Origin: Ferroacidibacillus organovorans
Lineage (GTDB): Bacteria; Bacillota; Bacilli; Alicyclobacillales; SLC66
Direction of reading: 5' to 3'
NCBI RefSeq assembly: GCF_001642725.1
Contig: NZ_LSUQ01000026.1
Span: 1-35,464, forward strand
DNA length: 35,464 nucleotides
Shown: positions 5,663 to 31,848 of the stretch, one piece after another
Position numbering within the stretch: the first letter of the stretch is position 1
How the letters are laid out: the number at the start of each line of letters is the position of its first letter
Notes under the pieces: model-generated
Databases searched by the model: none
Told to the model about the DNA's origin: nothing
The model's input: only the letters and a program-made list of their open reading frames with translations
Translations under genes and position numbers: made by a program

Positions 5663-6796
5663 TCACAAAACGCCTGTCGCGCCGCCGATGTACGCGTTTG
5701 CAGGATAGCCGTTTTGCTCCCAGTACCCATCGACGCGCGTCGCGTCAAAGCGAATGCGGTTGAGCCACTTGATCGACTTATAGCCGTACATCTCCGGCAC
5801 AAACAAGCGCAGTGGATACCCTTGCTGTACAGGGAGCGGCTCGCCGTTGATCGCGTACAGCAGCAGCACGTCAGAGACTGTCGCCTGCGCCATCGTGAGA
5901 CTCTCCGTATACACCCCGTCTGCCGAAAAAAAGGTGACATACTTCGCATCTGACGTCGGCGCAACGCTCCGTATCACCTCGCGTAGCGACACGCCCGTAA
6001 ACATGAGGTTCGGCACAACCCAGCCTGTCACACACTGAAAATTGCGCGCGATGCGCTCCTGTGGCATGGCCTTCAGATCTGCAAGCGTCAGGGTCAAGGG
6101 TTTTCCGACGAGTCCGTCGATCTGCAAGCGATACGTCTGTTCTTTTAGCGCTGGATACGATCCCGTGACCGTATAGTACTCAGGAAACGGCGGAATCGCA
6201 CTCCCCTTTGAGGCTTTTGAACCAAGCGCGAGCAGCGTTTCGGCCGGTCTTCGTCCACCAACTGCGAGCGCGACAAAACTGCCGAGCACGCCAAGCGCGC
6301 TATAGCGAAGAAAGTGACGGCGACTCCAATCGACGCGGCGGGTGATCACTGAATCGCGCGCTTTTGTGCCGATGGAAAAGAGCCGCATCGCAACATGGAT
6401 GACGATCCAACCCGCCATGATGTACGCGAAATCTCCGTGAAGCGTAAATGCGAGTCCGCGCCACGTCGCGGGAAAGAGGGCGATCAGCCAGAGCGCGAGC
6501 CCTGTCAGCGTAATGGCGCCAAGCAGCACCTGCGTCATGATCCAGTCGAGACGACGTACCCTTTTCCCTTTTGGAAGTCGGGCAACGAGGGGAAGCAAAA
6601 GGGCGAGTCCGAGCAGAATTCCGGCCGTGATGTGAAGATCGAGCAGCAGCGGTAGTACAGGGATGAGCACGGTGTGAACCTGCGGGAGAAAGAGCAGGAG
6701 ACCTGTGACGAGGAGAACACAAAATGCTGTGAGTGCAAACCAATGTGTTCGCACGTAGATCATGGGCCATTTACCGTGCGCGAAGGCGCGCTTCAT
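5663..6796 (-). CDS. Membrane cytochrome b561-type domain fused to a sulfite-oxidase-like molybdopterin domain
   Basis: A 377-aa fusion (numbered from ATG 6796). The first 150 residues hold four hydrophobic helices with spaced histidines (His18, His55, His120, His134) suited to bind b-type heme, as in b561-like domains. SRRHFLR (158-164) plus a hydrophobic segment resembles a twin-arginine signal. The rest is an oxidoreductase molybdopterin-binding domain of the sulfite oxidase/YedY class: NFQCVTGW places the molybdenum-ligand Cys255, and YGYKSIKWLNRI is a typical later motif. The likely design is an extracytoplasmic molybdoenzyme passing electrons to a membrane heme. The substrate is unknown; sulfite or an S-oxide is a guess from the family. 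ATG 6796 is chosen because GGGGAGTGA lies eight bases upstream; GTG 6808 is possible. It follows putative oxyanion transport genes on the same strand. Confidence 0.85.
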   Translation of the reverse strand: MKRAFAHGKWPMIYVRTHWFALTAFCVLLVTGLLLFLPQVHTVLIPVLPLLLDLHITAGILLGLALLLPLVARLPKGKRVRRLDWIMTQVLLGAITLTGLALWLIALFPATWRGLAFTLHGDFAYIMAGWIVIHVAMRLFSIGTKARDSVITRRVDWSRRHFLRYSALGVLGSFVALAVGGRRPAETLLALGSKASKGSAIPPFPEYYTVTGSYPALKEQTYRLQIDGLVGKPLTLTLADLKAMPQERIARNFQCVTGWVVPNLMFTGVSLREVIRSVAPTSDAKYVTFFSADGVYTESLTMAQATVSDVLLLYAINGEPLPVQQGYPLRLFVPEMYGYKSIKWLNRIRFDATRVDGYWEQNGYPANAYIGGATGVL

Positions 6797-6888
6797 GGAT
6801 TCGTTCACTCCCCGCGTCGCCGCACGACCATCGATCGATCAAAAGAGCGGCTGCTTTCCCTTTGATACGATCGATTCTACATAGTGGA

Positions 6889-6900
6889 TTCACGCGTGAA
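6889..6900. repeat. 12-bp perfect palindrome TTCACGCGTGAA, part of a 14-bp direct repeat
   Basis: TTCACGCGTGAA is self-complementary and lies in the 134-bp gap before the b561 fusion gene. ACGCGTGAACCGTT occurs exactly at 6892-6905 and again at 6946-6959, the second copy inside the end of the permease gene. The palindrome lies about ten bases upstream, on the minus strand, of a -10-like TAGAAT (6879-6874), so an operator for the fusion gene is plausible. No protein partner is identified. Confidence 0.45.
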
Positions 6901-6930
6901 CCGTTTTTACGTGACCATTCCGTGACATTT

Positions 6931-7710
6931 TCACATCAGGCCTGAACGCGTGAACCGTTGCAAAAAAGAGGCGAGAAGGCTGACCAAAACGCCCAATCCG
7001 ACGAGCAGGACAGACAGCGGAACAATTTGCGCAAGTCCGCCAGAAATAAACGATACCCAAGCGTAGATCGGCAGCGTGTAGGGATGATATGCCATCATGA
7101 GCGTCGCCCCAAACTCACCGATCGCGCGCGCAAACGTCAGGACGGCGCCGACGCCAATCGCGTCTTTGCAAATTGGGAGCAGCACATGCCAAAAATAGGC
7201 CCAAGAATCTCCTCCTAGCGTCTGTGTCGCTTCGAGATACTCTTTTGGCACTTCTGTCATCGCCTGTGAAACACTCAGAATGAGAAAAGGACTCGCGACA
7301 AAAAGTTGCGCAAGCACAACCCCCACGCTACTTCCGGTGAGAGAGACGCCAAACGCACTAAACCACGCGCCAAGCGGCGTGTTTGGTCCATACAGCATGA
7401 GTTCCGCCATCCCGCCGATGAGCGACGGGATGATCAGAGGGATCAAGAGGAATCCATGAAGTGTCTGTCGAATCAAACGCGGCGCACGCGAAAGCGCAAA
7501 ACTCGCGGGAACACCAAAGAGCATGGCGCAAAACGTTGTGAGCGCCGCCGTCTGCAATGACGTTTCAAGCGCCGGGAAAAATGCCGGATCCGAAACCAGG
7601 CTCTGAAACGACAGCGCATTTCGTGAGTGAAAAAGTGCACCGAGCGGCGCAAGGATAAAACTGAACGGAATGATCAGCAAAAGCGAATGAATAGGCGCGC
7701 GTTTTCTCAC
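6931..7710 (-). CDS. Molybdate/tungstate-type ABC transporter permease
   Basis: A 259-aa integral membrane protein with about six helices. It carries the ABC-permease EAA loop (EATQTLGGDSWAYFWHVLLP), which docks on the ATPase, and the ModB/WtpB-type signature ARAIGEFGATLMMAYHP. It would import an oxyanion delivered by the binding protein encoded six bases upstream. GTG 7710 follows the binding-protein stop with no strong ribosome site, suggesting coupled translation. No ATPase gene follows; the next gene on this strand is the b561/molybdopterin fusion. Whether the substrate is molybdate or tungstate cannot be told from the permease. Confidence 0.88.
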   Translation of the reverse strand: MRKRAPIHSLLLIIPFSFILAPLGALFHSRNALSFQSLVSDPAFFPALETSLQTAALTTFCAMLFGVPASFALSRAPRLIRQTLHGFLLIPLIIPSLIGGMAELMLYGPNTPLGAWFSAFGVSLTGSSVGVVLAQLFVASPFLILSVSQAMTEVPKEYLEATQTLGGDSWAYFWHVLLPICKDAIGVGAVLTFARAIGEFGATLMMAYHPYTLPIYAWVSFISGGLAQIVPLSVLLVGLGVLVSLLASFLQRFTRSGLM

Positions 7711-7716
7711 GTTCCG

Positions 7717-8817
7717 TTACGCGTGGACACTGCCCTTTGTAGGTGTCAGGTCTTTTTGCAAAACGGTCGGGATCGCTGAACGAAGTCCATACGCAGTATG
7801 AGGCATCGCCGTAAACCCTTCTCGCAAAAGAATTTTGTTCGCAGGTCCCGAGAGCAAGTCGTTGACGAAGGCAATCGCCGCCGCCTTATGCTTGGCGTTT
7901 GTGGGAATCGAGATGGTAAACACGATCGGTTCCGCGTGGGACGTCTTACCTTTTTGTGTCCACGTTGCGTTGTGATAAAAAGCAGACTCTGCCGGATCGC
8001 CGAGGTTGATCGCGTTTGGCAGTGTGATATAAGGCACATGCCACTCTTTTGCCTCATGCAAAAAGGCGACCGCCGCATCGACTTGACCTGTCTTCAATTG
8101 CGCGAGCAGCGCTTCTTCCGGGAAGATCTGTTTTGGGTTTAGCGCGCTGCCGATGATGCGCGATGAGAGCGTTTTGTTGTGATAGAAACGTTCAGCCAAT
8201 TGGAGCATCTCGACGGTCATGACGCCTTTTGGATCGATCGTCGGATCCGTGCGGCCGAGGCGAAAGCCCTTTTGTTCGAGAACAGAGTACCAGGGCAGGC
8301 GATGCGCTGCGGCGAGACGAAGGTCTTTGGCGTAGCGACTGGTCGGGTTATAAGCGATCACCAATTGATCTTTGGCGAGTGTGATGTACCAGGTTTCGAG
8401 ATTGTGGTTGGTCTTTCCCATGAGCAAGGACGTATTGACAGAAGGCGCCGCGCTGATAAACACGTCAGGCTGCCCCAATCCGTTTCTCATCATTTGGGCG
8501 AGCGCGACGGATCCCATGCCTTTGCCCTGGTACGTATCCCCTGTCATCTTATCAAACTGTGGCCCGATCGCCTGTTCCATGACCTGCGTCATCGATCCCG
8601 CGTAGTATACCTTTAGCGGAGTATGCGCGACGGACGTCGCCGCGCGACGTGCCAAATGTTTCGGCTGTGTCCCTTGTTGCGCGGTGTGCGAAGCTGTGTT
8701 TTTCGTTGTGCCAAACGCGTGAGTCGCGCCCAGTGTGCCTGCCAAAAGCGTCAAACTTGCAATTGAAAAGAGTGTAAACCGAATTTTTCGCTGTCCTCGT
8801 ATTGAATCATTTTTCAT
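7717..8817 (-). CDS. Molybdate/tungstate-type ABC transporter substrate-binding protein
   Basis: A 366-aa secreted binding protein. A basic start and hydrophobic segment (FTLFSIASLTLLAGTLGATHAFG) form a signal peptide without a clear lipobox cysteine. The mature part starts near residue 67 with LKVYYAGSMTQVMEQAIGP and has GRTDPTIDPKGVMTVEM, which resembles the WtpA/ModA class II proteins that bind oxyanions. The stretch of about 40 residues between signal and fold is low-complexity (HTAQQGTQPKHLARRAA). ATG 8817 has a strong AAGGAGAG ribosome site at 8829-8836. It lies 45 bases after the HTH regulator gene and six bases before the permease gene. Confidence 0.87.
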   Translation of the reverse strand: MKNDSIRGQRKIRFTLFSIASLTLLAGTLGATHAFGTTKNTASHTAQQGTQPKHLARRAATSVAHTPLKVYYAGSMTQVMEQAIGPQFDKMTGDTYQGKGMGSVALAQMMRNGLGQPDVFISAAPSVNTSLLMGKTNHNLETWYITLAKDQLVIAYNPTSRYAKDLRLAAAHRLPWYSVLEQKGFRLGRTDPTIDPKGVMTVEMLQLAERFYHNKTLSSRIIGSALNPKQIFPEEALLAQLKTGQVDAAVAFLHEAKEWHVPYITLPNAINLGDPAESAFYHNATWTQKGKTSHAEPIVFTISIPTNAKHKAAAIAFVNDLLSGPANKILLREGFTAMPHTAYGLRSAIPTVLQKDLTPTKGSVHA

Positions 8818-8862
8818 AAAGTATCCGTCTCTCCTTCACTATCAATCGTGCTATGTCGATGG

Positions 8863-9909
8863 TTATGTAAGCATGCGACCAAGGGTCGACACGTCATAGG
8901 GACCGCTGATTTTTAGTGTCGCCAAAAAACGATCGGACGCGAGCGTTTGCAGCGCGTGTGAAACGACCGGATGGACTAAATCCACCGCAAACGACAGCAC
9001 AGACGAATCCTCGCTCAGTGACACAAAATCAAGGTTGCACGCGTACGCCTCCGGTTCTGGCATGACGCCTAGATCCGCAAAGCGACACGCCACAGCTTCT
9101 GCGACATGCGCGTGCGACGGGAGTTCCACATCGTATCCCGCAAGTGTGTCTACGTGTGCGTCATTTTCGTGTGACCAGCGATCAAGCGCCTGACGAGCAC
9201 CGGCGCCGCGCGGTCGATTGACCAGGCGCATCGCCTTGATGCGCTCAGCGTCAGGCGGTGCAAAACGCTCCCCCGCAAAGCCAAATCCGAGTCGATAGCG
9301 CGTGAATTGCAGGCGCGCTTTGACCTCTTTGTCTTCGTCAAAAGACAGCCCCTGACCGAAATGCGTCGCGACGGCATGCACCCTTTTTTCGGCGAGGTAC
9401 GCACGCGCCGTTTGATTGTCGCAGTTGATCCAGTACGCGACCGTTTTCCCTGCGGCGAGATTGATCGCCTGTACCCAGAGTCCAAGCGCACTGTCACAGC
9501 CAGCCACCAAAAAGACTTCGTCAGGATGAGCGCCATACGCCGCATTCATGACGCGGATGTGCGCGCCTCTTACTTCTGATACGCGCGCGTTTGGAAGCAC
9601 CGCATCCAATCGGCGGTTGCCTTCTTGGCGTCCAGCGTGAACAACCGTTTGCCCCGCGATTCGGGCAAGGATCAACGGATCGCCCACGCGCATGCCGGGC
9701 ATGTGAAAGGAAGGTCTCTCATCAAGAAAAAAGAGGTCTTCTACGCGACAGTGAAAAATTTGCGCGAGCGTAAGCGCCGTCGCCGTGTTTGGAATGACCG
9801 CGCCTTTTTCGATCGCACTGAGCGCCTGACGCGTAACGCCTGTGCGCAGCGCGAGATCCTCTTGCGTTAGCGATGCGCGCTGGCGCATCTCCCGCAGCCT
9901 GTTTTGCAT
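8863..9909 (-). CDS. XRE-type HTH regulator with PBP-like molybdate-binding domain
   Basis: A 348-aa protein. Residues 1-60 form a Cro/CI-type helix-turn-helix (LTQEDLALRTGVTRQALSAI). The rest resembles the PBP-like domain (the type found with molybdopterin-biosynthesis proteins), with motifs such as VFLVAGCDSALGLWVQAINL and an LGFGFAGERF segment. Such proteins are thought to sense oxyanion or cofactor status and control uptake. It is the first gene of a minus-strand run: regulator, binding protein, permease, molybdopterin-domain fusion. ATG 9909 has GAGAGGGGC upstream. Ligand and operator are not shown by the sequence. Confidence 0.8.
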   Translation of the reverse strand: MQNRLREMRQRASLTQEDLALRTGVTRQALSAIEKGAVIPNTATALTLAQIFHCRVEDLFFLDERPSFHMPGMRVGDPLILARIAGQTVVHAGRQEGNRRLDAVLPNARVSEVRGAHIRVMNAAYGAHPDEVFLVAGCDSALGLWVQAINLAAGKTVAYWINCDNQTARAYLAEKRVHAVATHFGQGLSFDEDKEVKARLQFTRYRLGFGFAGERFAPPDAERIKAMRLVNRPRGAGARQALDRWSHENDAHVDTLAGYDVELPSHAHVAEAVACRFADLGVMPEPEAYACNLDFVSLSEDSSVLSFAVDLVHPVVSHALQTLASDRFLATLKISGPYDVSTLGRMLT

Positions 9910-10053: not shown

Positions 10054-10800
10054 TTAGTCAGCCAAGATCGCCGCGAACACTTCAGCTTGCCGCTCATAAA
10101 AGCAGAGATCCGCGCGTTCGTCGAGGTCGGTTGGCTCAAGGTTGATGACGACACGCTTTGCAGCGTGCGATGCGTACTGCGGGAGGCTGGCGACCGGCTC
10201 CACGGTCAGGCTGCTTCCGATGATCAAAAGGAGATCTGCGCGTGCAACCGCGTAAAACGCCTCTTGGTAGTGACGCACAGGTTGCTCAAACAGCACGATA
10301 TCCGGTTGCAGAATTTCCTGACAGTCACCGCCTTTTAGCGTGTACGCGTGACAGTGCGGAACGTCATTCGCAAGAATTGCGTCGAGCGTGTAGCGCGCGC
10401 CACAGCGTGGACAAAACGCCGCATGAATATTTCCATGTAACTCAAGCACATGAGCGCTTCCCGCCGCCGCGTGGAGTCCGTCCACATTCTGTGTGAGAAT
10501 CGTGATGTCCTTTCCCATGCGCTCGAGTTCCGCCAGCGCGAGATGCCCCGGATTGGGTTTTGCCGCGAGGAATTCAGGACGCAGAAAAACAGCCTTATAC
10601 TCGGGCCAGAACCCCTCCGGGTCGGCGCGATAAAACGAGTCAGACATGCGTTGCGCGCGCGTCTCGTCCTCAAAGAAACCACCTGCGCTGCGAAAGTCAG
10701 GGATGCCTGATTCGGTGCTCATTCCCGCTCCCGTGAGAACAACCAGGCGCTTGCTCGCTTCGATTAATGATCTCAAAAGCGCAACTTTTGAAGGATTCAC
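10054..10800 (-). CDS. Sirtuin, NAD-dependent protein deacylase
   Basis: A 248-aa Sir2-family protein that removes acetyl or acyl groups from lysines using NAD+. The motifs are in order: GAGMSTESGIPDFRS (24-38), TQNVDGLH (103-110), catalytic His122 in ELHGN, and GSSLTVEP. Zinc-ligand cysteines are Cys130, Cys133, Cys150 and Cys160. The last pair is C-x9-C rather than the usual C-x2-C, an insertion in the zinc module. GTG 10800 overlaps the stop of the acetyltransferase gene by four bases, so the two products are probably made together. This pairing suggests the sirtuin reverses the acylations made by its partner. Confidence 0.93.
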   Translation of the reverse strand: MNPSKVALLRSLIEASKRLVVLTGAGMSTESGIPDFRSAGGFFEDETRAQRMSDSFYRADPEGFWPEYKAVFLRPEFLAAKPNPGHLALAELERMGKDITILTQNVDGLHAAAGSAHVLELHGNIHAAFCPRCGARYTLDAILANDVPHCHAYTLKGGDCQEILQPDIVLFEQPVRHYQEAFYAVARADLLLIIGSSLTVEPVASLPQYASHAAKRVVINLEPTDLDERADLCFYERQAEVFAAILAD

Positions 10801-13283
10801 GAGGTTTCGCCCCCACTCCTAGCATCCGGATGAAACAAAAAGCTAATGCGCTTTGCCTGAACAAAAACATGATCGCCCCGCACGGTGATGCACCCAAGGG
10901 TCAGCGCGCTTATCTCCGGGCTCTCATCAACAAGCGTCGAGATGCGCAAGAGAAGCTCTGAAAGTGATCGCGCGGGAGGCGGGAACTCGTCCACCCCAGC
11001 GGGCGCCAAAGCAGCGCTTTGCAGCGCGCGCAGTTTCAGCGCGTGTAACGCCAGTTCGCGCGCATCCACATCGGTGAGCGGCGTGATGCGAAGCGCGTCC
11101 GGATCGCGTGGGAGCACGTCTGACGGGCTGCCGTCTTCTCCGTCATTTAGCGTTAGCAAAAGCCCGAAGAGCGGATCGGATACGACGCGCAAAGAGAACA
11201 CATTTTCATCACTCCTCCCGCCTTCTGCTGCAACAGATCGCATAGCGTTAGGCGTCTGCCCCTGATCGTCAAGGTCAACGCCACACAAGTTCATAAGCGT
11301 GCGCGCAGATTCCCCACAAAGCCTATCGGCACGCGATTTGCAGGCGATCATCTCTGCGCGAATCGCCGCGTGATCCCATCCTTCAAATTCGGGAATGGAG
11401 CCGCGACTCTCCGCTTTGCGAAACGCGTACTCAGCCACTTTAGAGAGCGCGCGTACCGCCTGTTCTGGAAACGGATAGATCGGAATCGCGACGCCGCCCA
11501 CTGCAATGGCGCGCGGTTTTTCTTCGCCCATCATCAACAGATTGGCCACCACAGGCTTTTGCTCATCCTGCGCGCTATCCGCGTAAACTTCGTTTACAGC
11601 CTCGCCGATTGCCCGTAACACCGCCCCTTCATCCACGACGCCAACGGGTGTGAAAATCACGATCACTGCGTCGACGGCAGGATCGCGCAGGACATGGGGC
11701 AGCACATCACGGTAGCTGTTTGCCAATTCTTCAAATCCGAGGTTGACAAGCGGGCCGACAAACTGGAGCCCTTCGCGCGTAAGCGTATCTGCCGCGATCA
11801 CAGCGCCACCCGCCGTATTCGTCACGATGGCGACACGTCGTCCGCGCGGCATGCGCTTTGTCGAAAGCAGTGCGGCGACGTCAAAGATGTCTTGGAGCGT
11901 ATCCACGCGAATGATGCCGGTCTGACGAAACAGCGCATCGACGAGCAGATCCGATGCGATCTGTGTGGTCTGACGCGTATCTGAGAGCGCGACGCCCGCC
12001 GCTGTGCGCGCGCTCTTGACGACGAGTATCGGTTTGTTTGGCGCCATTCTGCGTACAATGCGCGAGAATTTACGCGGATTTCCAAACGACTCCAAATAAA
12101 GCGCAACCATCTCCGTCTCCGGATCATCTTCCCAATACTGAAGAAGGTCATTGCCAGAAACGTCAGCTCGATTGCCAAGGCTTACAAACGAAGCGATGCC
12201 AACGCCTATGCGCGTTGCGTATTCCAGAATCGCGACGCCAAGCGCTCCCGAGTGGCTTGCGATGGCTAGGGCGCCACGCTTTGGCATGACAGGTGAGAAG
12301 CTGGCGTTGAGCGATACATCGCAATCGGTGTTGACAACGCCCATCCCATTTGGCCCAAGCAGCCGCCCTCCTGCCCCGCGCACGAGCGCTACCATCTCTT
12401 CTTGGCGCGCTGCACCTTGCGCGTCCGCCTCGGCAAATCCAGATGACGCAACCATAATGGCGCGAATGCCCGCTTGAACGCATGATGCGACAACCGTCGA
12501 TGCCTGTTTTGCTGGCACGACGATGACAGCGAGATCGATTGGATCGGGGATTTCGGCCACATCCTGATAGGCGCGTACACCCGAGATCGCATACGCAGTC
12601 GGATTAACCGGGAAAACGGCGCCTTGATACGCTGACAGCAAGATGTGCCGCAGCAACAGGTGTCCAAGGCGCACGGGATTGCGCGACGCACCGATGAGCG
12701 CGATTGCGCGGGGACGAAAAAAAGGCGCGAGAGAGCGAGCTGTCGCCGCCTTTTCACGGCTCTCGCGCAAGTGACGACTCTGTTCTGTCAGCGCCAGCGG
12801 AAGTTCATAGCGAATGGTCGTAAACGTCGCGTCGCTCTTGACCGCATAGCCACTCTGGCGAAAAACATGCTGCATCGCGGTGTTTTCGCGAAGCACATGC
12901 GCCTCAAACCGCGTGATGCCATGCCGCCAGGCATGCTCTGCCAGATGCTCCAAAAGAAGCGTTCCCAGACCCATATTTCGCAACTGGTCATCAACGAGAA
13001 ACGCGACTTCTGCCATCGCATCTTCACCGCGCATGTAGTGGCCCATCGCGAGCGTCTCCTCCCTCGCGATGCAAAGGAGCGTGATTCCCTGCGCGCCGCC
13101 GTCCGCAATCATTCCGCGGATCATCGCGTCACTCACATGCTTTACGACGTGCATGAATCGCGCGTATAGACTATCTCTTGACACGCGCTCATACAGTGAG
13201 CGAATGCGTGCCACGTCGTCCTCCGACTGGGTGGCGACCACCATGGTTGCCACGCGTCCGTCACGTAAGATGATGCGCGTCAT
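10797..13283 (-). CDS. GNAT plus ADP-forming acyl-CoA-synthetase-like protein acetyltransferase (Pat-like, GNAT at N-terminus)
   Basis: An 828-aa protein. Residues 1-165 are a GNAT domain with the acetyl-CoA loop LRNMGLG (101-107). A CoA-binding domain starts near 190 (FFRPRAIALIGASRNP) and a succinyl-CoA-ligase-like region follows. This matches Pat-type protein lysine acetyltransferases in the order with GNAT first. The synthetase part looks inactive: where active ADP-forming enzymes have SHTG, this has SDTR (434-437), losing the phospho-histidine. The C-terminal ATP-grasp region seems to lack its ATP-binding first half, with only about 30 residues between LMNLCGV and VSDPLFG. A sensing or scaffold role for that part is inferred. 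ATG 13283 is chosen over 13307 because GAGGGAGGGG precedes it. It overlaps the DUF309 gene by 23 bases and the sirtuin by four. Confidence 0.85.
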   Translation of the reverse strand: MTRIILRDGRVATMVVATQSEDDVARIRSLYERVSRDSLYARFMHVVKHVSDAMIRGMIADGGAQGITLLCIAREETLAMGHYMRGEDAMAEVAFLVDDQLRNMGLGTLLLEHLAEHAWRHGITRFEAHVLRENTAMQHVFRQSGYAVKSDATFTTIRYELPLALTEQSRHLRESREKAATARSLAPFFRPRAIALIGASRNPVRLGHLLLRHILLSAYQGAVFPVNPTAYAISGVRAYQDVAEIPDPIDLAVIVVPAKQASTVVASCVQAGIRAIMVASSGFAEADAQGAARQEEMVALVRGAGGRLLGPNGMGVVNTDCDVSLNASFSPVMPKRGALAIASHSGALGVAILEYATRIGVGIASFVSLGNRADVSGNDLLQYWEDDPETEMVALYLESFGNPRKFSRIVRRMAPNKPILVVKSARTAAGVALSDTRQTTQIASDLLVDALFRQTGIIRVDTLQDIFDVAALLSTKRMPRGRRVAIVTNTAGGAVIAADTLTREGLQFVGPLVNLGFEELANSYRDVLPHVLRDPAVDAVIVIFTPVGVVDEGAVLRAIGEAVNEVYADSAQDEQKPVVANLLMMGEEKPRAIAVGGVAIPIYPFPEQAVRALSKVAEYAFRKAESRGSIPEFEGWDHAAIRAEMIACKSRADRLCGESARTLMNLCGVDLDDQGQTPNAMRSVAAEGGRSDENVFSLRVVSDPLFGLLLTLNDGEDGSPSDVLPRDPDALRITPLTDVDARELALHALKLRALQSAALAPAGVDEFPPPARSLSELLLRISTLVDESPEISALTLGCITVRGDHVFVQAKRISFLFHPDARSGGETS

Positions 13284-13731
13284 CGCGATCCCCTCCCTCA
13301 GCCTCATCGCCGTGAAGCGGTGGAAGTGTCATCGTCTTGACTTGCTCTGCAAGATTAGAATCGAGAATGCGCAGTGTCACAATCGGCAGTTGAAGCAATG
13401 CAATCCGCTGCTCGGGGACGACGCGTTCAAATAAATCGCGTGGAAGATGATCAAAGACGCGCTGTGTGTCGCGAAGGAGCGACTCGATATCGATTTGTTC
13501 ATAGACCGGCCGAATCGATTGCATATACGCTTTTGCGCGCAGCCACATTGGGTAGGCGCCGCGCACATTTCCATTTTCGAGATGATAGAGACAGACTGCC
13601 GCTTGAATGAGTCCTTTGAGAGCCTCTGGTCGCCCCGAATCAAGCCATAAAGATTCACCGTATTCGTGACAGAGGAAATAGTCGCGTCGAATGTTATAGC
13701 AGTGAAGATACGCAAGCAGCCGCTCGTCCAA
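13261..13731 (-). CDS. DUF309 family protein (YpuF-like)
   Basis: A small helical protein of the DUF309 family, recognised by RRDYFLCHEYGESLW and LIQAAVCLYHLENGNVRGA, which correspond to the family's F-x-HE-x-x-E-x-W and L-x-Q-x-AV-x-x-YH motifs. The biochemical role of this family is unknown. The frame is open further upstream (ATG 13791 and 13830 overlap the preceding gene), but TTG 13731 is preferred: GAAGGG lies nine bases before it, and family members begin about ten residues before the HE motif. It sits between the GGDEF gene and the acetyltransferase gene, overlapping the latter by 23 bases. Confidence 0.72.
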   Translation of the reverse strand: MDERLLAYLHCYNIRRDYFLCHEYGESLWLDSGRPEALKGLIQAAVCLYHLENGNVRGAYPMWLRAKAYMQSIRPVYEQIDIESLLRDTQRVFDHLPRDLFERVVPEQRIALLQLPIVTLRILDSNLAEQVKTMTLPPLHGDEAEGGDRDDAHHLT

Positions 13732-13777
13732 TGTCAAAATCCCTTCATGGCGCGATGCGCGTCGCGCGAGATGTGTC

Positions 13778-15046
13778 TCACTCGATCGCATACGCGACAA
13801 CCCGATTTTTGCCACTTCTCTTTGCCGCATAGAGCGCGTGATCCGCGTGAATCAAGAGTGTCTCTGGAAGCTGGCCATCTTTTGGCGCATACGCAAATCC
13901 GATGCTCGGGGTGACCCTGATTGTCCAATCATCATAGAGAATCTTTTCAGATAGCGCCGCGAGAACATGTTCTGCAAAGGACTGCGCCTCATCCAGTGAA
14001 GTGAGTCTACATACAACAACGCAAAACTCATCGCCTCCCAACCGAAACGCGCTCACGTGCTTGCTCTCGATCTCTTGCAAGCGCTCGGAAACACCGCAAA
14101 TCAGCGCATCGCCTGCGTGATGGCCATACGTGTCATTCACGCGCTTGAACTCATCCAAATCAATTAAAAGAATGGCGACACCTAAATGTGGCTTGCTTGC
14201 CGCGAGACACGCTTTGATGTGCGCGTCAAGACTTCTGCGATTTAGTAGGTGCGTCAATGGATCGTGGTACGCCAAAAACTCAACCTGCGCTTTCGCATTC
14301 TTTTCCTCGGTGATGTCTGTGGTGATCCCAAAAACGCCGACAATTTGCCCGTTGATGGTCATCGGCACGTATGTCACACTGAGTTGAATGTTACTACCTG
14401 ACTTGTGAATGGTAACCATCTCGAAGGTCGAAGCGGTTCCTTTCAGCGCCTGTCGAAAATTTCGGATCGCCGTCACGCGATCATCCGGGTGAACGTATTT
14501 GAGCGAAGAGCTCCCGATCAACTCATCTGCAGAGTATCCGGTCAACCGCTCCGTCGCCGGATTGACCTGCGTAAAGACACCGCTCCCATCCATCGCGTAG
14601 ATTGCATTCGGGTTGAATTCAAACAAGGAGCGAAAGCGCTGCTCGTTGATGCGAACCAATTCCCACGCCTTGCGAATCTCCGTGACGTCTCGCCCAACGA
14701 CCAGCACGCCGACCCACTCACCCGCCTCATAAATCGGTTTTGCGTGTACTTCAAGGTGAATATATTCATTGTTTGCATTTTTAAATTGGAAATCGGTTGC
14801 AATACCGTCGATATGATTGGGAAGCATAAAAAAGCGATCCTTGATACGCGCTTGATCGCTTGGGTGAAGATAAGAAAACGCACTTTTATGAAGTAATTCG
14901 TCAACGCCATAGCCGAGTTTAAAATGATGGGACGGAGATGCGTACACATAGTTTCCTTCGCGGTCAAGGAATACGATCATGTCCGTCATATTTTCAGCAA
15001 TCAGGCGATACATTTGCTCGCGGTTAGGCGTAAACGACAAGTTCAT
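13778..15046 (-). CDS. Diguanylate cyclase with two PAS domains
   Basis: A 422-aa soluble protein without membrane segments. PAS domain 1 spans about 8-125, PAS domain 2 about 135-250, and a GGDEF domain about 255-420. The catalytic motif is intact (RLGGDEFCVV, GGDEF at 337-341), as are the metal-binding DLDEFKRVND and HHAGD segments, so it should make c-di-GMP from two GTP. The inhibitory RxxD site normally just upstream of GGDEF is absent (ESKH there), so classic product inhibition is not expected. The PAS domains may sense a small ligand, redox state or oxygen. ATG 15046 has AAGGAGA upstream. It heads the run GGDEF-DUF309-acetyltransferase-sirtuin. Confidence 0.93.
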   Translation of the reverse strand: MNLSFTPNREQMYRLIAENMTDMIVFLDREGNYVYASPSHHFKLGYGVDELLHKSAFSYLHPSDQARIKDRFFMLPNHIDGIATDFQFKNANNEYIHLEVHAKPIYEAGEWVGVLVVGRDVTEIRKAWELVRINEQRFRSLFEFNPNAIYAMDGSGVFTQVNPATERLTGYSADELIGSSSLKYVHPDDRVTAIRNFRQALKGTASTFEMVTIHKSGSNIQLSVTYVPMTINGQIVGVFGITTDITEEKNAKAQVEFLAYHDPLTHLLNRRSLDAHIKACLAASKPHLGVAILLIDLDEFKRVNDTYGHHAGDALICGVSERLQEIESKHVSAFRLGGDEFCVVVCRLTSLDEAQSFAEHVLAALSEKILYDDWTIRVTPSIGFAYAPKDGQLPETLLIHADHALYAAKRSGKNRVVAYAIE

Positions 15047-15125
15047 TCTCCTTGGGCCAAAAGCCTTATGATCGAACCTTGTCTCTAATTCTATAACAAT
15101 TTAGAAAGTCTTGGAATAGCGTTTC

Positions 15126-15449
15126 TCACAGTGCGCGAAATTCGTGAACCCAAAATGTGAGGTCAGGTCCAAAATGCGCATTCGAATGCATTTCCGACAG
15201 GTGACGATGGTACGCTGAGAGCGTTTCATAGCCTTCCTTTTGCGCATCTTCATCCGAAATGTCGCGAAACTGTTGAGTGTACACCGCAGTCAGTTCAAAG
15301 GGATGGCCCGCAAGGGTGAAGCGATCACCTGGGTCGCCATAGCGTTTGCTTCTGCGTTGAGCGCGTTTGGATCCGTCGAGCGCTTTTTTTGTATCCATCG
15401 GATCCGTGATCAAACGCTCCAGAGAACGGGGTTGTGGAACATTTTCCAT
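15126..15449 (-). CDS. ASCH domain protein
   Basis: A 107-aa protein with a beta-barrel ASCH-like core: YGDPGDRFTLAGHPFELTAV, then VYTQQFRDISDEDAQKEGY and a histidine-containing helix YHRHLSEMH. The ASCH fold is related to PUA domains and is usually linked to RNA or nucleotide binding. ATG 15449 has a strong CAGGAGG ribosome site. It lies directly downstream of rnpB on the same strand. The first 40 residues are very basic (KRAQRRSKR), consistent with nucleic-acid contact. No specific substrate can be named. Confidence 0.72.
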   Translation of the reverse strand: MENVPQPRSLERLITDPMDTKKALDGSKRAQRRSKRYGDPGDRFTLAGHPFELTAVYTQQFRDISDEDAQKEGYETLSAYHRHLSEMHSNAHFGPDLTFWVHEFRAL

Positions 15450-15509: not shown

Positions 15510-15579
15510 CAGTGTTTGCGCGCGCTGTGAATCCTACCCGAGGAAATACGCTATAAAAGAGAGCAATAAAAAATAATGA

Positions 15580-15993
15580 GCGCGAGCAAGCAATAAGCCG
15601 AGTTCTGTCTCCTCACGTACTCAGACAGCCATCAACGTTCATGGCCTCGCACGAATTGAGGTGGCAATCATCTATCTAGGCGACGCATCTCTGCGCCACT
15701 CAAGCAACCTACCCGAGTGCGTGGCGGGTCACCACAATGCACTCCTATGCGGTCTTGCTCCAGGTGGGGTTTACCTAGCCGACGCGTCACCGCGCCGCTG
15801 GTGCGCTCTTACCGCACCGTTGCATCCTTGCCTGTGAAGCATCACTGCTCCCATCGGCGGTCTCCATTTCTGTGGCACTTTCCTTAGGATTGCTCCCACT
15901 GGGGGTTACCCAGCACCACGCCCTGTGGAGCTCGGACTTTCCTCCCGTGCGACCTTTCGGTGCTGCACCGGCGATTGCCTCGCTTACTCGCGC
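15580..15993 (-). ncRNA. rnpB: RNase P RNA (type A-like)
   Basis: The catalytic RNA of RNase P, which matures tRNA 5' ends. On the minus strand it holds the universal CR-I segment GAGGAAAGTCCGAGCTCCA, then the GGTAAACCCCACC element that pairs with tRNA CCA, then AGATAGATGATTGCC and the 3' ACAGAACTCGGCTTAT. The ends pair as helix P1: GCGCGAGTAAGC (15993-15982) with GCTTGCTCGCGC (15591-15580). Helices seen after the L15 loop (GGAGTGCA paired with TGCACTC-like bases) and a P13/P14-like GGTGCGGTAAGAGCGCACC resemble the ancestral type A layout of E. coli rather than type B of Bacillus. Ends are good to a few bases. Confidence 0.95.
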
Positions 15994-28742: not shown

Positions 28743-30860
28743 CTATCGATTCTTTTGCGCCAAAAGCTTTTCCGGATCAGGGTACTCAATTCGCTCGTGA
28801 TACACCCCTTGCAGCGTACGCATAAACGCAGCCGTCATCTTATCGAGGTCGCGGAGTGTGATGTCACATTGATCCAGTTGTCCGTCTTGCAATCGGTCTT
28901 TGATAATCTTGCGAATCATCGCCTCAATGCGCGGCGGCGTCGGTTTTTGCATCGAGCGCACCGCAGCCTCCACGGCGTCACAGATCATGACGATCGCCGC
29001 CTCGCGCGACTGTGGTTTTGGCCCAGGGTAGCGAAACTGATCGATATCCGGTTGTGCGTGCTTATCTTCTTCTACCGCTTTGTTATAAAAGTACCACAAG
29101 ACGGTCGTACCGTGATGCTGTGCACAAATCGCGGTGACCGGTTCCGGCAACCTATACTCGTTTAACATGGCGAGTCCATCCGATACATGAGATGTCACAA
29201 TCAAATAAGAGAGACTCGCCGCAACTTTATCGTGCGGATTATCCCCGCCGATTTGATTCTCGATAAAAAAAGCGGGTCTTCTCATTTTACCCACATCGTG
29301 GAAATACGCGCCAACGCGACAGATGAGCGCGTCGGCTCCAATCGCCTCGGCGGCCGACTCCGCAAGATTGCCAACGATCAGACTGTGGTGATATGTCCCC
29401 GGCGCTTCAAGCAGCAAACGGCGCAGGAGCGGGTGATTCGGATTGGCGAGTTCAAGGAGACCAATGTGCGTCGTGACGCGAAAAATTGTCTCGAGATACG
29501 GCATGAGCCCGATGCTGAAAATGCCAGAAAGCAATCCGCCAACGACGCCATAGAGCAGATCATACGACACACCGCGGATCGACGTGGAACTCGGGATAAG
29601 CAGATGCATGATGCCGATCGCGGCAAAATTGATCCCTGCCGCCAAAAACCCAGCGCGCATGAACACGCCACGATTCTGGACCCGCGAAGTTGCCATCGTT
29701 GCCCCGAGCGACCCCATCAGCGCGACAAAAAATGGCGCGAACGCAAACCCGTACGCAGAAGAGGCGAGCAGCGCGACGAGTAAAGAAGACAAGAGCGCGA
29801 GTGACGTGCCAAAAAACAGGCTGATCATCATGCTGCCCATGGCAAACGGCACGGCGTCGACGAGCGACGGTGCAAACCCTGCGTTAACCGCCGTCTTGCT
29901 CACGCGGATCAGTACGATCAAAAGGGTGAGCAAAAGCGCATAGAGGAGAAGATGGAGATTATCCTTTGCAATTCGGCCCCGTCGCATCTGAATAAAAATG
30001 CCGATCGCGATAACCAAGAGCAGAACAAACAGCAGGTATCCTGCTTCCATCGCATAATCCGGCTCGTTTTTGAGCATCTTCAGGTCTTTCATTTGACTGA
30101 GCGTAGCTGGCGTTACGAGCTGCCCGCGACGCAAAATGACATCCCCGCGATTGATCCAGACATCAGGGACATTTCGCTCTGCATTCAAGCGCGCCTGCTG
30201 TGTCAGCACGGGATCATACACAAGATTAGGTTTGACGACCGCGAGCAGGAGTTTTGCGATCGCCATGCGATCTTTGATGTTAACGTCGAGCGTGACGAGT
30301 TGTTGATCGATCATCATCGCTGCATTTTTCATGTCTGACGCAGAAAAAGGCCCGCCCAACACCGTTTGAACGATGCGAATCGAATCCCCCGACAATTCAT
30401 TGAACTCAAGCGGCGTCGCCTGAAGGAGTGTTGTGAATACACTCCCATCAACCCCCGGCGGGGCGCTCGCCTTTAATGTCAAAAGGCGCTCCGCCATCGT
30501 GAGCGATTTATCCGATAGAACCGTCTGTGTCGTTACGAAGAGTCGCTCAAGAATCGACACCGCGCTTTGCTCGATCGCCGGATTGACATCGTACCGTGGC
30601 GACACCTGCTGCGCCGCGGCAATGCGCGCCTGCTGTGTGGCGTACGTATCCACCGCATCCGTCGGCGCGACGATCGTCGACTGACTGACTTGCCCCACCG
30701 AAAAGGAATAGCGCTGAGGCAAGACCGCGCCAATCAACAAAGCATAGATGACGACAACAAGCTCTCCATAAATCGCGGCCCGCATTCTGCGACTTTTGTG
30801 AAAAGGGAGCGACGTGAGAAATTGGATCAAACGGTTCTGCGTGCGCGCAGTACGCTTCAT
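28743..30860 (-). CDS. pgpH: Membrane HD-family cyclic-di-AMP phosphodiesterase (PgpH/YqfF)
   Basis: A 705-aa protein of the 7TMR-HD family, which cleaves c-di-AMP. It has an N-terminal helix, a large extracellular domain (about 60-280), seven helices (about 290-470) and a cytosolic HD domain with HHSLIVGNLAESAAEA and GAYFHDVGKMRRPAFF. Length matches PgpH (711). ATG 30860 follows the phoH stop by seven bases; a longer frame reading back into phoH is not used. In this window the GGDEF protein makes a different nucleotide, c-di-GMP. Confidence 0.94.
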   Translation of the reverse strand: MKRTARTQNRLIQFLTSLPFHKSRRMRAAIYGELVVVIYALLIGAVLPQRYSFSVGQVSQSTIVAPTDAVDTYATQQARIAAAQQVSPRYDVNPAIEQSAVSILERLFVTTQTVLSDKSLTMAERLLTLKASAPPGVDGSVFTTLLQATPLEFNELSGDSIRIVQTVLGGPFSASDMKNAAMMIDQQLVTLDVNIKDRMAIAKLLLAVVKPNLVYDPVLTQQARLNAERNVPDVWINRGDVILRRGQLVTPATLSQMKDLKMLKNEPDYAMEAGYLLFVLLLVIAIGIFIQMRRGRIAKDNLHLLLYALLLTLLIVLIRVSKTAVNAGFAPSLVDAVPFAMGSMMISLFFGTSLALLSSLLVALLASSAYGFAFAPFFVALMGSLGATMATSRVQNRGVFMRAGFLAAGINFAAIGIMHLLIPSSTSIRGVSYDLLYGVVGGLLSGIFSIGLMPYLETIFRVTTHIGLLELANPNHPLLRRLLLEAPGTYHHSLIVGNLAESAAEAIGADALICRVGAYFHDVGKMRRPAFFIENQIGGDNPHDKVAASLSYLIVTSHVSDGLAMLNEYRLPEPVTAICAQHHGTTVLWYFYNKAVEEDKHAQPDIDQFRYPGPKPQSREAAIVMICDAVEAAVRSMQKPTPPRIEAMIRKIIKDRLQDGQLDQCDITLRDLDKMTAAFMRTLQGVYHERIEYPDPEKLLAQKNR

Positions 30861-30867
30861 GGATCCA

Positions 30868-31848
30868 TCATCCGAGGTCGGCCTCGTCTTCTGCCGCGTA
30901 TGCGCGAATAATGCGTTGAACAAGCGGATGGCGCACAACGTCCGCCTCATCCAACTCAATAAACGAAATCTCGTCAATTCCGCTCAAAATGCGTGCCGCT
31001 TCTTTCAATCCCGAGCGTTTTCCGCGCGGGAGATCAATCTGAGTGACGTCACCTGTTATGACCATCTTCGCGCTGTGACCGAGTCGCGTGAGAAACATTT
31101 TCATCTGCTCTGGCGTCGTGTTCTGCGCTTCATCAAGAATCACAAACGCTTCATCAAGTGTCCGCCCGCGCATATAGGCGAGAGGCGCAACTTCAACCAA
31201 TCCGCGCTCCATCGAGCGCGCCAACTGCTCAGGCCCCATCACATCGTGGAGAGCGTCATAGAGCGGTCGCAGATACGGGTCTACTTTCTCTTGAAGATCG
31301 CCCGGCAAGAAGCCGAGGTTCTCCCCCGCTTCGACCGCAGGCCGTGTCAAAATGATACGTTTGACTTCCGAACGCTTCAAACTCAAAAAAGCAAGCACGA
31401 CCGCCATATAGGTTTTTCCTGTTCCAGCAGGCCCAATTCCAAAAACAATATCGTGTTTGCGAATCGCATCCACATAGCGTCTTTGACCAAGCGTTTTGAT
31501 GCGAATGCTTTTGCCGCGAAACGTCTGTGCGATCTCTTCTGTATACATCTCTAAAAGAGCGCGAACTTGTCCCGTTTTTGAAAGGGTGATCGCATAAGCG
31601 ATGTCCCTTTCTGTAAGTCCATATCCTTTGTGGGAAAGGGCTGTGAGCACGTCAAACAGTTCGCCCAGTTCGGCCACATCCGATTCTTTTCCAGTCAACG
31701 TAATCTCATTGCCTCGGCTGATCACTTGACACGAAAAGGCTTGGTCCAATGCACGCAAATGTGCATCGTGTGGCCCGAGGATCGCTCTTGCCTCTTCATT
31801 GTCTCGCAGGACAATTTTTCGTGATGACGTCACGCTCGCTTCGCTCAA
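30868..31848 (-). CDS. phoH: PhoH-family P-loop ATPase
   Basis: A 326-aa protein with Walker A GPAGTGKT (139-146), FVILDEAQNTTPEQMKMFLT (Walker B and following), and TGDVTQIDLPRGKRSG. A KH-like N-terminal part is common in the family. Exact cellular role is unclear. TTG 31848 is used with GGGAGAGAAG upstream; GTG 31833 is an alternative. It lies between yqfD and pgpH as in Bacillus. Confidence 0.94.
   Translation of the reverse strand: MSEASVTSSRKIVLRDNEEARAILGPHDAHLRALDQAFSCQVISRGNEITLTGKESDVAELGELFDVLTALSHKGYGLTERDIAYAITLSKTGQVRALLEMYTEEIAQTFRGKSIRIKTLGQRRYVDAIRKHDIVFGIGPAGTGKTYMAVVLAFLSLKRSEVKRIILTRPAVEAGENLGFLPGDLQEKVDPYLRPLYDALHDVMGPEQLARSMERGLVEVAPLAYMRGRTLDEAFVILDEAQNTTPEQMKMFLTRLGHSAKMVITGDVTQIDLPRGKRSGLKEAARILSGIDEISFIELDEADVVRHPLVQRIIRAYAAEDEADLG

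Follow-up and report, generated by a model that had tools for sequence, protein, structure and literature searches.

The 35,464-nt window analysed here (contig NZ_LSUQ01000026.1, Ferroacidibacillus organovorans) carries four closely packed minus-strand genes, which encode a PAS-PAS-GGDEF protein, a DUF309 protein, a protein combining a GNAT domain with an acyl-CoA synthetase (ACS)-like region, termed GNAT-ACS, and a sirtuin, termed SirA. The core of this cluster is probably a reversible lysine acylation module consisting of GNAT-ACS as the writer and SirA as the eraser, and the four-gene arrangement built around this module is probably a young, genus-level operon. The genome to which the window belongs is denoted G000, and that of a sister species of the same genus G001.

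An initial annotation had described four minus-strand open reading frames (ORFs) of these families, and the profile matches, all far above chance, bore out both the ORFs and their assignments. The PAS-PAS-GGDEF protein (13778..15046; 422 aa) matched PF00990 (1.2e-39) and two PAS domains, the DUF309 protein (13261..13731; 156 aa, TTG start) matched PF03745 (9.6e-16), and GNAT-ACS (10797..13283; 828 aa) united GNAT, CoA_binding_2 and Succ_CoA_lig (5.5e-47) matches in one protein. SirA (10054..10800; 248 aa) matched PF02146 (1.4e-41) and scored 276 bits, above the cut-off, with NCBIfam PRK00481.1-4. The tight packing described in the same annotation also held, with a 46-nt gap between GGDEF and DUF309 and overlaps of 23 nt (DUF309/GNAT-ACS) and 4 nt (GNAT-ACS/SirA), the spacing presuming starts at TTG 13731 (DUF309), ATG 13283 (GNAT-ACS) and GTG 10800 (SIR2). 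The DUF309 start was assigned to TTG 13731 because the aligned homologues begin with M-D-x-R-L at the residue encoded by this codon and because a 2-nt indel in G001 shifts the upstream ATG out of frame. The GNAT-ACS start codon is preceded by GGGAGGGG, which resembles a ribosome-binding site (RBS). The junction spacing is kept in G001, where the final overlap reads ATGA in place of GTGA. Comparison of the two species indicates purifying selection on each of the four genes, with a ratio of nonsynonymous to synonymous substitution rates (dN/dS) of 0.07 for GGDEF, 0.12 for DUF309, 0.11 for GNAT-ACS and 0.09 for the sirtuin.

The domains and motifs of GNAT-ACS are arranged as in a type II bacterial acetyltransferase. 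The type II GNATs are defined by a GNAT-first layout together with an ACS domain devoid of the catalytic histidine, and acyl-CoA sensing is the role given to this ACS domain (PMC8556138). In GNAT-ACS, an N-terminal GNAT domain is followed by CoA-binding and succinyl-CoA-ligase-like domains and a degenerate ATP-grasp. Alignment through 2csu and 4xyl showed that the catalytic-histidine motif SHTG has become SDTRQ in the window protein, and that this histidine, a feature of ADP-forming acyl-CoA synthetases, is kept by none of the full-length GNAT-ACS homologues of the order, a motif reading from which L043, L044 and L046 were left out as their large rearranged ORFs are off-frame calls. The acetyl-CoA P-loop R/Q-x-x-G-x-G/A is present as R-N-M-G-L-G in the window protein and as K/R/Q/G-x-x-G-x-G variants, mostly Q-x-K-G-x-G, in the relatives. 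The closest solved structures to the GNAT domain were 4nxy and 4u5y, both titled 'Acyl-CoA synthetase', which we take to be the GNAT domain of SlPatA from Streptomyces lividans. The most likely clients of GNAT-ACS would be AMP-forming acyl-CoA synthetases. G000 harbors two AcsA-class genes above the cut-off, along with several other AMP-forming ligases; the AcsA copy on C17 contains the canonical acetylated-lysine motif PKTRSGK, and the best-scoring one (G000:C85:328-2163, L187) has PKTRSAK where PKTRSGK is usual.

Motif alignment of SirA revealed the GAG-x-S NAD motif, QN-[IV]-D, the catalytic His and the four Zn cysteines. The acyl-pocket motif Y-x-x-R, the position of which was presumed from CobB, was absent from SirA, the protein having Y-K-A-V at that site and no R in the aligned region. 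Since this motif is missing while the NAD, His and Zn residues are present, desuccinylation appears less likely, and deacetylation or short-chain deacylation is the more likely activity of SirA. A second sirtuin gene of G000 is located ∼2 kb from an AcsA-like gene (G000:C7:26498-28282 and 30525-31061), and five sirtuin-family genes were seen in another genome, G040 (L060).

The distribution of the writer and the eraser was surveyed in 59 genomes of the order, with SirA counted at ≥47% identity. Full-length GNAT-ACS was found in 37 genomes and SirA in 32; both were present in 30, GNAT-ACS alone in 7, SirA alone in 2 and neither in 20 (Fisher p = 6e-8 for co-occurrence, uncorrected for phylogeny). 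A GNAT-less version of the ACS protein occurred in 10 of the 59 genomes, all belonging to genus g10, and SirA was missing from every one of these 10. The two genes are adjacent, as read from their coordinates, in 21 of the 30 genomes that carry both: 14 pairs are in tandem, with SirA downstream in 13 and upstream in G057, 4 are divergent (G029, G032, G046, and G058) and 3 convergent (G035, G038, and G050). This persistence of adjacency through rearrangement argues for selection on the linkage itself. The pair is an old one that related bacteria have kept together. As to other neighbors, a thioredoxin (C9) and/or thioredoxin reductase (C4) gene takes the place of the sirtuin at the g10 loci L069, L070, L071, L072, and L064, next to a GNAT-less ACS gene and, in G034, to a full GNAT-ACS. 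In genus g7, a gene of the acetyl-CoA hydrolase/CoA-transferase family is positioned upstream of GNAT-ACS, which fits a tie to acyl-CoA metabolism.

A different eraser accompanies the same writer family in Sulfobacillus-type genomes, the GNAT-ACS proteins of which are 42-46% identical to that of the window. At all five loci (L036-L040), the divergent (head-to-head) neighbor of GNAT-ACS encodes an HDAC-family (AcuC-type) protein; the assignment is based on a PF00850 match of 6e-84 for the L037 copy, with which the other four cluster. No sirtuin match was obtained at 1e-15 with the SirA query in these five genomes. Within the order, PF00850 was absent from all 59 genomes, G000 included, while control genomes did match; hence, an HDAC was ruled out as the substitute eraser in those genomes of the order that carry GNAT-ACS and no SirA. 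As the same writer family pairs with an HDAC there and with a sirtuin in the order, an unrelated enzyme appears to have taken the eraser's place in the Sulfobacillus-type lineage. The combination of an AcuA writer with an AcuC HDAC eraser is known from acuABC of Bacillus subtilis (PMC8556138, PMC13121692).

The remaining two genes have a history of their own. DUF309 is single copy in G000 and is carried by 27 of 41 relatives; G000 and G001 are the only two in which it adjoins GNAT-ACS, its location being a different one in the other 25. In three genomes of genus g4 (G004, G011, and G015), DUF309 follows immediately on the RNase P RNA gene rnpB, at a distance of 79-118 nt and in the same orientation; genes for a sigma factor and TrmK are nearby, as they are near the class A rnpB of the window (15579..15990, minus strand; Rfam RF00010, 289 bits, 3.7e-94). 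This gene order identifies rnpB as the ancestral upstream neighbor of DUF309. In the same g4 genomes, GNAT-ACS-SirA is located apart from DUF309, near an HTH-PBP regulator gene and a solute-binding gene, both of which also follow SirA in the window. As DUF309/rnpB and GNAT-ACS-SirA sit separately in g4, the window brings two older blocks together, and the DUF309/GNAT-ACS junction looks like a recent rearrangement. In most DUF309 homologues, the C terminus falls at LPPLH-x-DEA or earlier; that of G031 is LPPLHDDEAQP. The window protein runs on as EGGDRDDAHHLT, its last ∼12 residues being an out-of-frame reading of the RBS and initial codons of GNAT-ACS. Because the tail reads through these elements, the 23-nt overlap is best read as the result of a DUF309 stop codon lost at the junction. 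No solved structure was matched by DUF309 in sequence or profile searches, and no informative paper on its function was found. The GGDEF gene and a 107-aa ORF lie between rnpB and DUF309. A GGDEF orthologue (E ≤ 1e-60) was found only in G001 (89% identity) and in none of the 39 other relatives, and the GGDEF gene is by this measure the newest part of the cluster. The four-gene order thus shows how a seemingly designed operon, complete with an overlap, may arise through recent rearrangement.

Within the genus, one transcript running from GGDEF to the sirtuin is likely. A candidate cluster promoter, TTCCAA-17 nt-TAGAAT, was located by eye at 15088..15116 on the minus strand, and the conservation between G000 and G001 upstream of GGDEF begins at ATTCCAAGACTTTCT..ATTGTTATAGAAT, i.e., at this block. 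Its -35 element is weak and it is missing from the list of the consensus scan, in which promoter and terminator matches were no more numerous than in shuffled sequences. The 107-aa ORF (15126..15449, minus strand) had no Pfam or NCBIfam match; its homologues occur in G001 (77%) and, at unlinked places, in G004, G009, and G011 of the family. In G001, a terminator-like hairpin with a T-run and an extra short stretch intervene between this ORF and the GGDEF gene, and its membership in the operon was rejected on these grounds; it is probably on its own transcript. Downstream of the sirtuin, the HTH and PBP-like regulator (8863..9909, minus strand) is the first of a set of tungstate/molybdate transport genes, lies near GNAT-ACS/SirA in g4 too, and has a promoter-like site of its own (TTGACA-17-CATGAT at 10009-9981). 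The region 5663-9909 comprises this regulator, a tungstate/molybdate-type binding protein, a permease, and a fusion of a molybdopterin oxidoreductase with a cytochrome b561-like part.

In the proposed mechanism, GNAT-ACS would move acetyl or other short acyl groups from acyl-CoA onto lysines of its client proteins, its catalytically dead synthetase domain would sense acyl-CoA, and the NAD+-dependent SirA would strip the acyl groups off again. The writer and eraser genes would have been selected to remain together and, in this genus, would be translationally coupled. The cluster would have arisen when this pair came to adjoin DUF309, long the neighbor of rnpB, and the GGDEF gene was gained between rnpB and DUF309; the four genes would then probably be transcribed from the promoter just upstream of GGDEF. 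DUF309 and GGDEF would be passengers outside the acylation module.

Several observations weigh against this interpretation. Of the 30 genomes carrying both genes, 9 have them unlinked, and the pairing is not obligate, as 7 genomes have the writer alone and 2 the eraser alone. Most genomes possess a second, more distant sirtuin, which could serve as an alternative eraser. The absence of a sirtuin from the five Sulfobacillus-type genomes was read from assemblies of unstated completeness, and the occurrence of the four-gene order in two genomes only means that neutral drift and selection are not separable.

The initial annotation had further suggested that the four genes form one circuit linking cyclic diguanylate (c-di-GMP) with reversible acylation, in an order that might be conserved in relatives. 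The order is kept in the one sister species, but it was seen only in G000 and G001; its conservation beyond the genus was rejected as DUF309 lies elsewhere and no GGDEF orthologue was found in the 39 relatives. Of the circuit, the writer-eraser half is upheld by co-occurrence, adjacency, and the HDAC pairing, whereas the four-gene half is unsupported beyond the genus. That the four genes nevertheless act as one circuit within the genus, with c-di-GMP tuning SirA or GNAT-ACS, or acetylation controlling the cyclase, and DUF309 as an adaptor, is unlikely. The PAS-PAS-GGDEF protein is predicted to be an active diguanylate cyclase; its GGDEF signature is intact (RLGGDEF), and no RxxD inhibitory site was seen by eye. 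The tight packing kept in both species and the strong purifying selection on GGDEF would suit such a circuit, as would the precedent of E. coli, in which c-di-GMP inhibits CobB-L through the N-terminal R-x8-R-x3-E and CobB deacetylates and activates DgcZ (PMC11139211, PMC8603916). However, the arrangement is confined to one genus, and the writer-eraser pairs of all other genera are without GGDEF and DUF309. SirA has neither the long N-terminal tail of CobB-L nor R-x8-R-x3-E (PMC11139211), and CobB-style c-di-GMP binding by SirA was rejected. A c-di-GMP/acylation circuit at this locus, for which co-location is what speaks besides the E. coli precedent, is of low probability. Slightly less likely again is that a newly acquired cyclase heads an acylation operon in which c-di-GMP and acylation are tied to each other through a common transcript and perhaps through direct cross-regulation, DUF309 serving to couple them.

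It is improbable that the adjacency of GNAT-ACS and SirA is due to chance or is purely positional and devoid of functional meaning. The two genes are indeed apart in nearly a third of the genomes with both, and the four-gene join itself looks like a rearrangement accident; however, the pair has stayed adjacent in several genera and in each of three geometries, and in a further lineage an unrelated deacetylase neighbors this writer. Very improbable is a working ADP-forming acyl-CoA synthetase making the acyl donor for its own GNAT domain, to which the TIGR02717 (acetate-CoA ligase alpha domain) score of 377 bits and a weak ATP-grasp match might point, as that score is below the cut-off of 567, the ATP-grasp is partial (residues 704-816 only), and none of the full-length proteins of the order retains the phospho-acceptor histidine.

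The reversible acylation module makes a case, on genomic grounds, for a type II GNAT with its own cognate sirtuin, a pairing of which no description was found in the literature searched, the coverage of which is incomplete. It also offers a natural swap between an NAD+-dependent sirtuin and a Zn-dependent AcuC-type eraser beside the same writer, which would make the gain from coupling deacylation to NAD+ directly testable.

Among the known systems, the E. coli CobB-DgcZ feedback loop alone ties a sirtuin to a diguanylate cyclase. It differs from the present cluster in being post-translational, with genes that do not share an operon, and in its c-di-GMP motif, which SirA lacks. SlPatA, the type II enzyme of Streptomyces lividans, is presumably the best PDB match of the GNAT domain. 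GNAT-ACS differs from SlPatA in having an adjacent eraser gene, with a 4-nt overlap in this genus; no counterpart of the collagen-like C-terminal region of SlPatA was seen in GNAT-ACS, although no search was aimed at one. In the type I Pat and CobB of Salmonella and E. coli, a GNAT is likewise fused to a dead ACS domain and a sirtuin reverses the modification, whereas the domain order of GNAT-ACS is reversed relative to Pat. We know of no description of the Pat and CobB genes as adjacent in E. coli or Salmonella. The pairing of AcuA with an HDAC-family AcuC was not seen in the order, none of the 59 genomes having a PF00850 protein. As in acuABC, the writer and eraser genes of lysine acetylation stand side by side in the window; however, AcuA is a small GNAT without an ACS domain, and the eraser in the window is a sirtuin.
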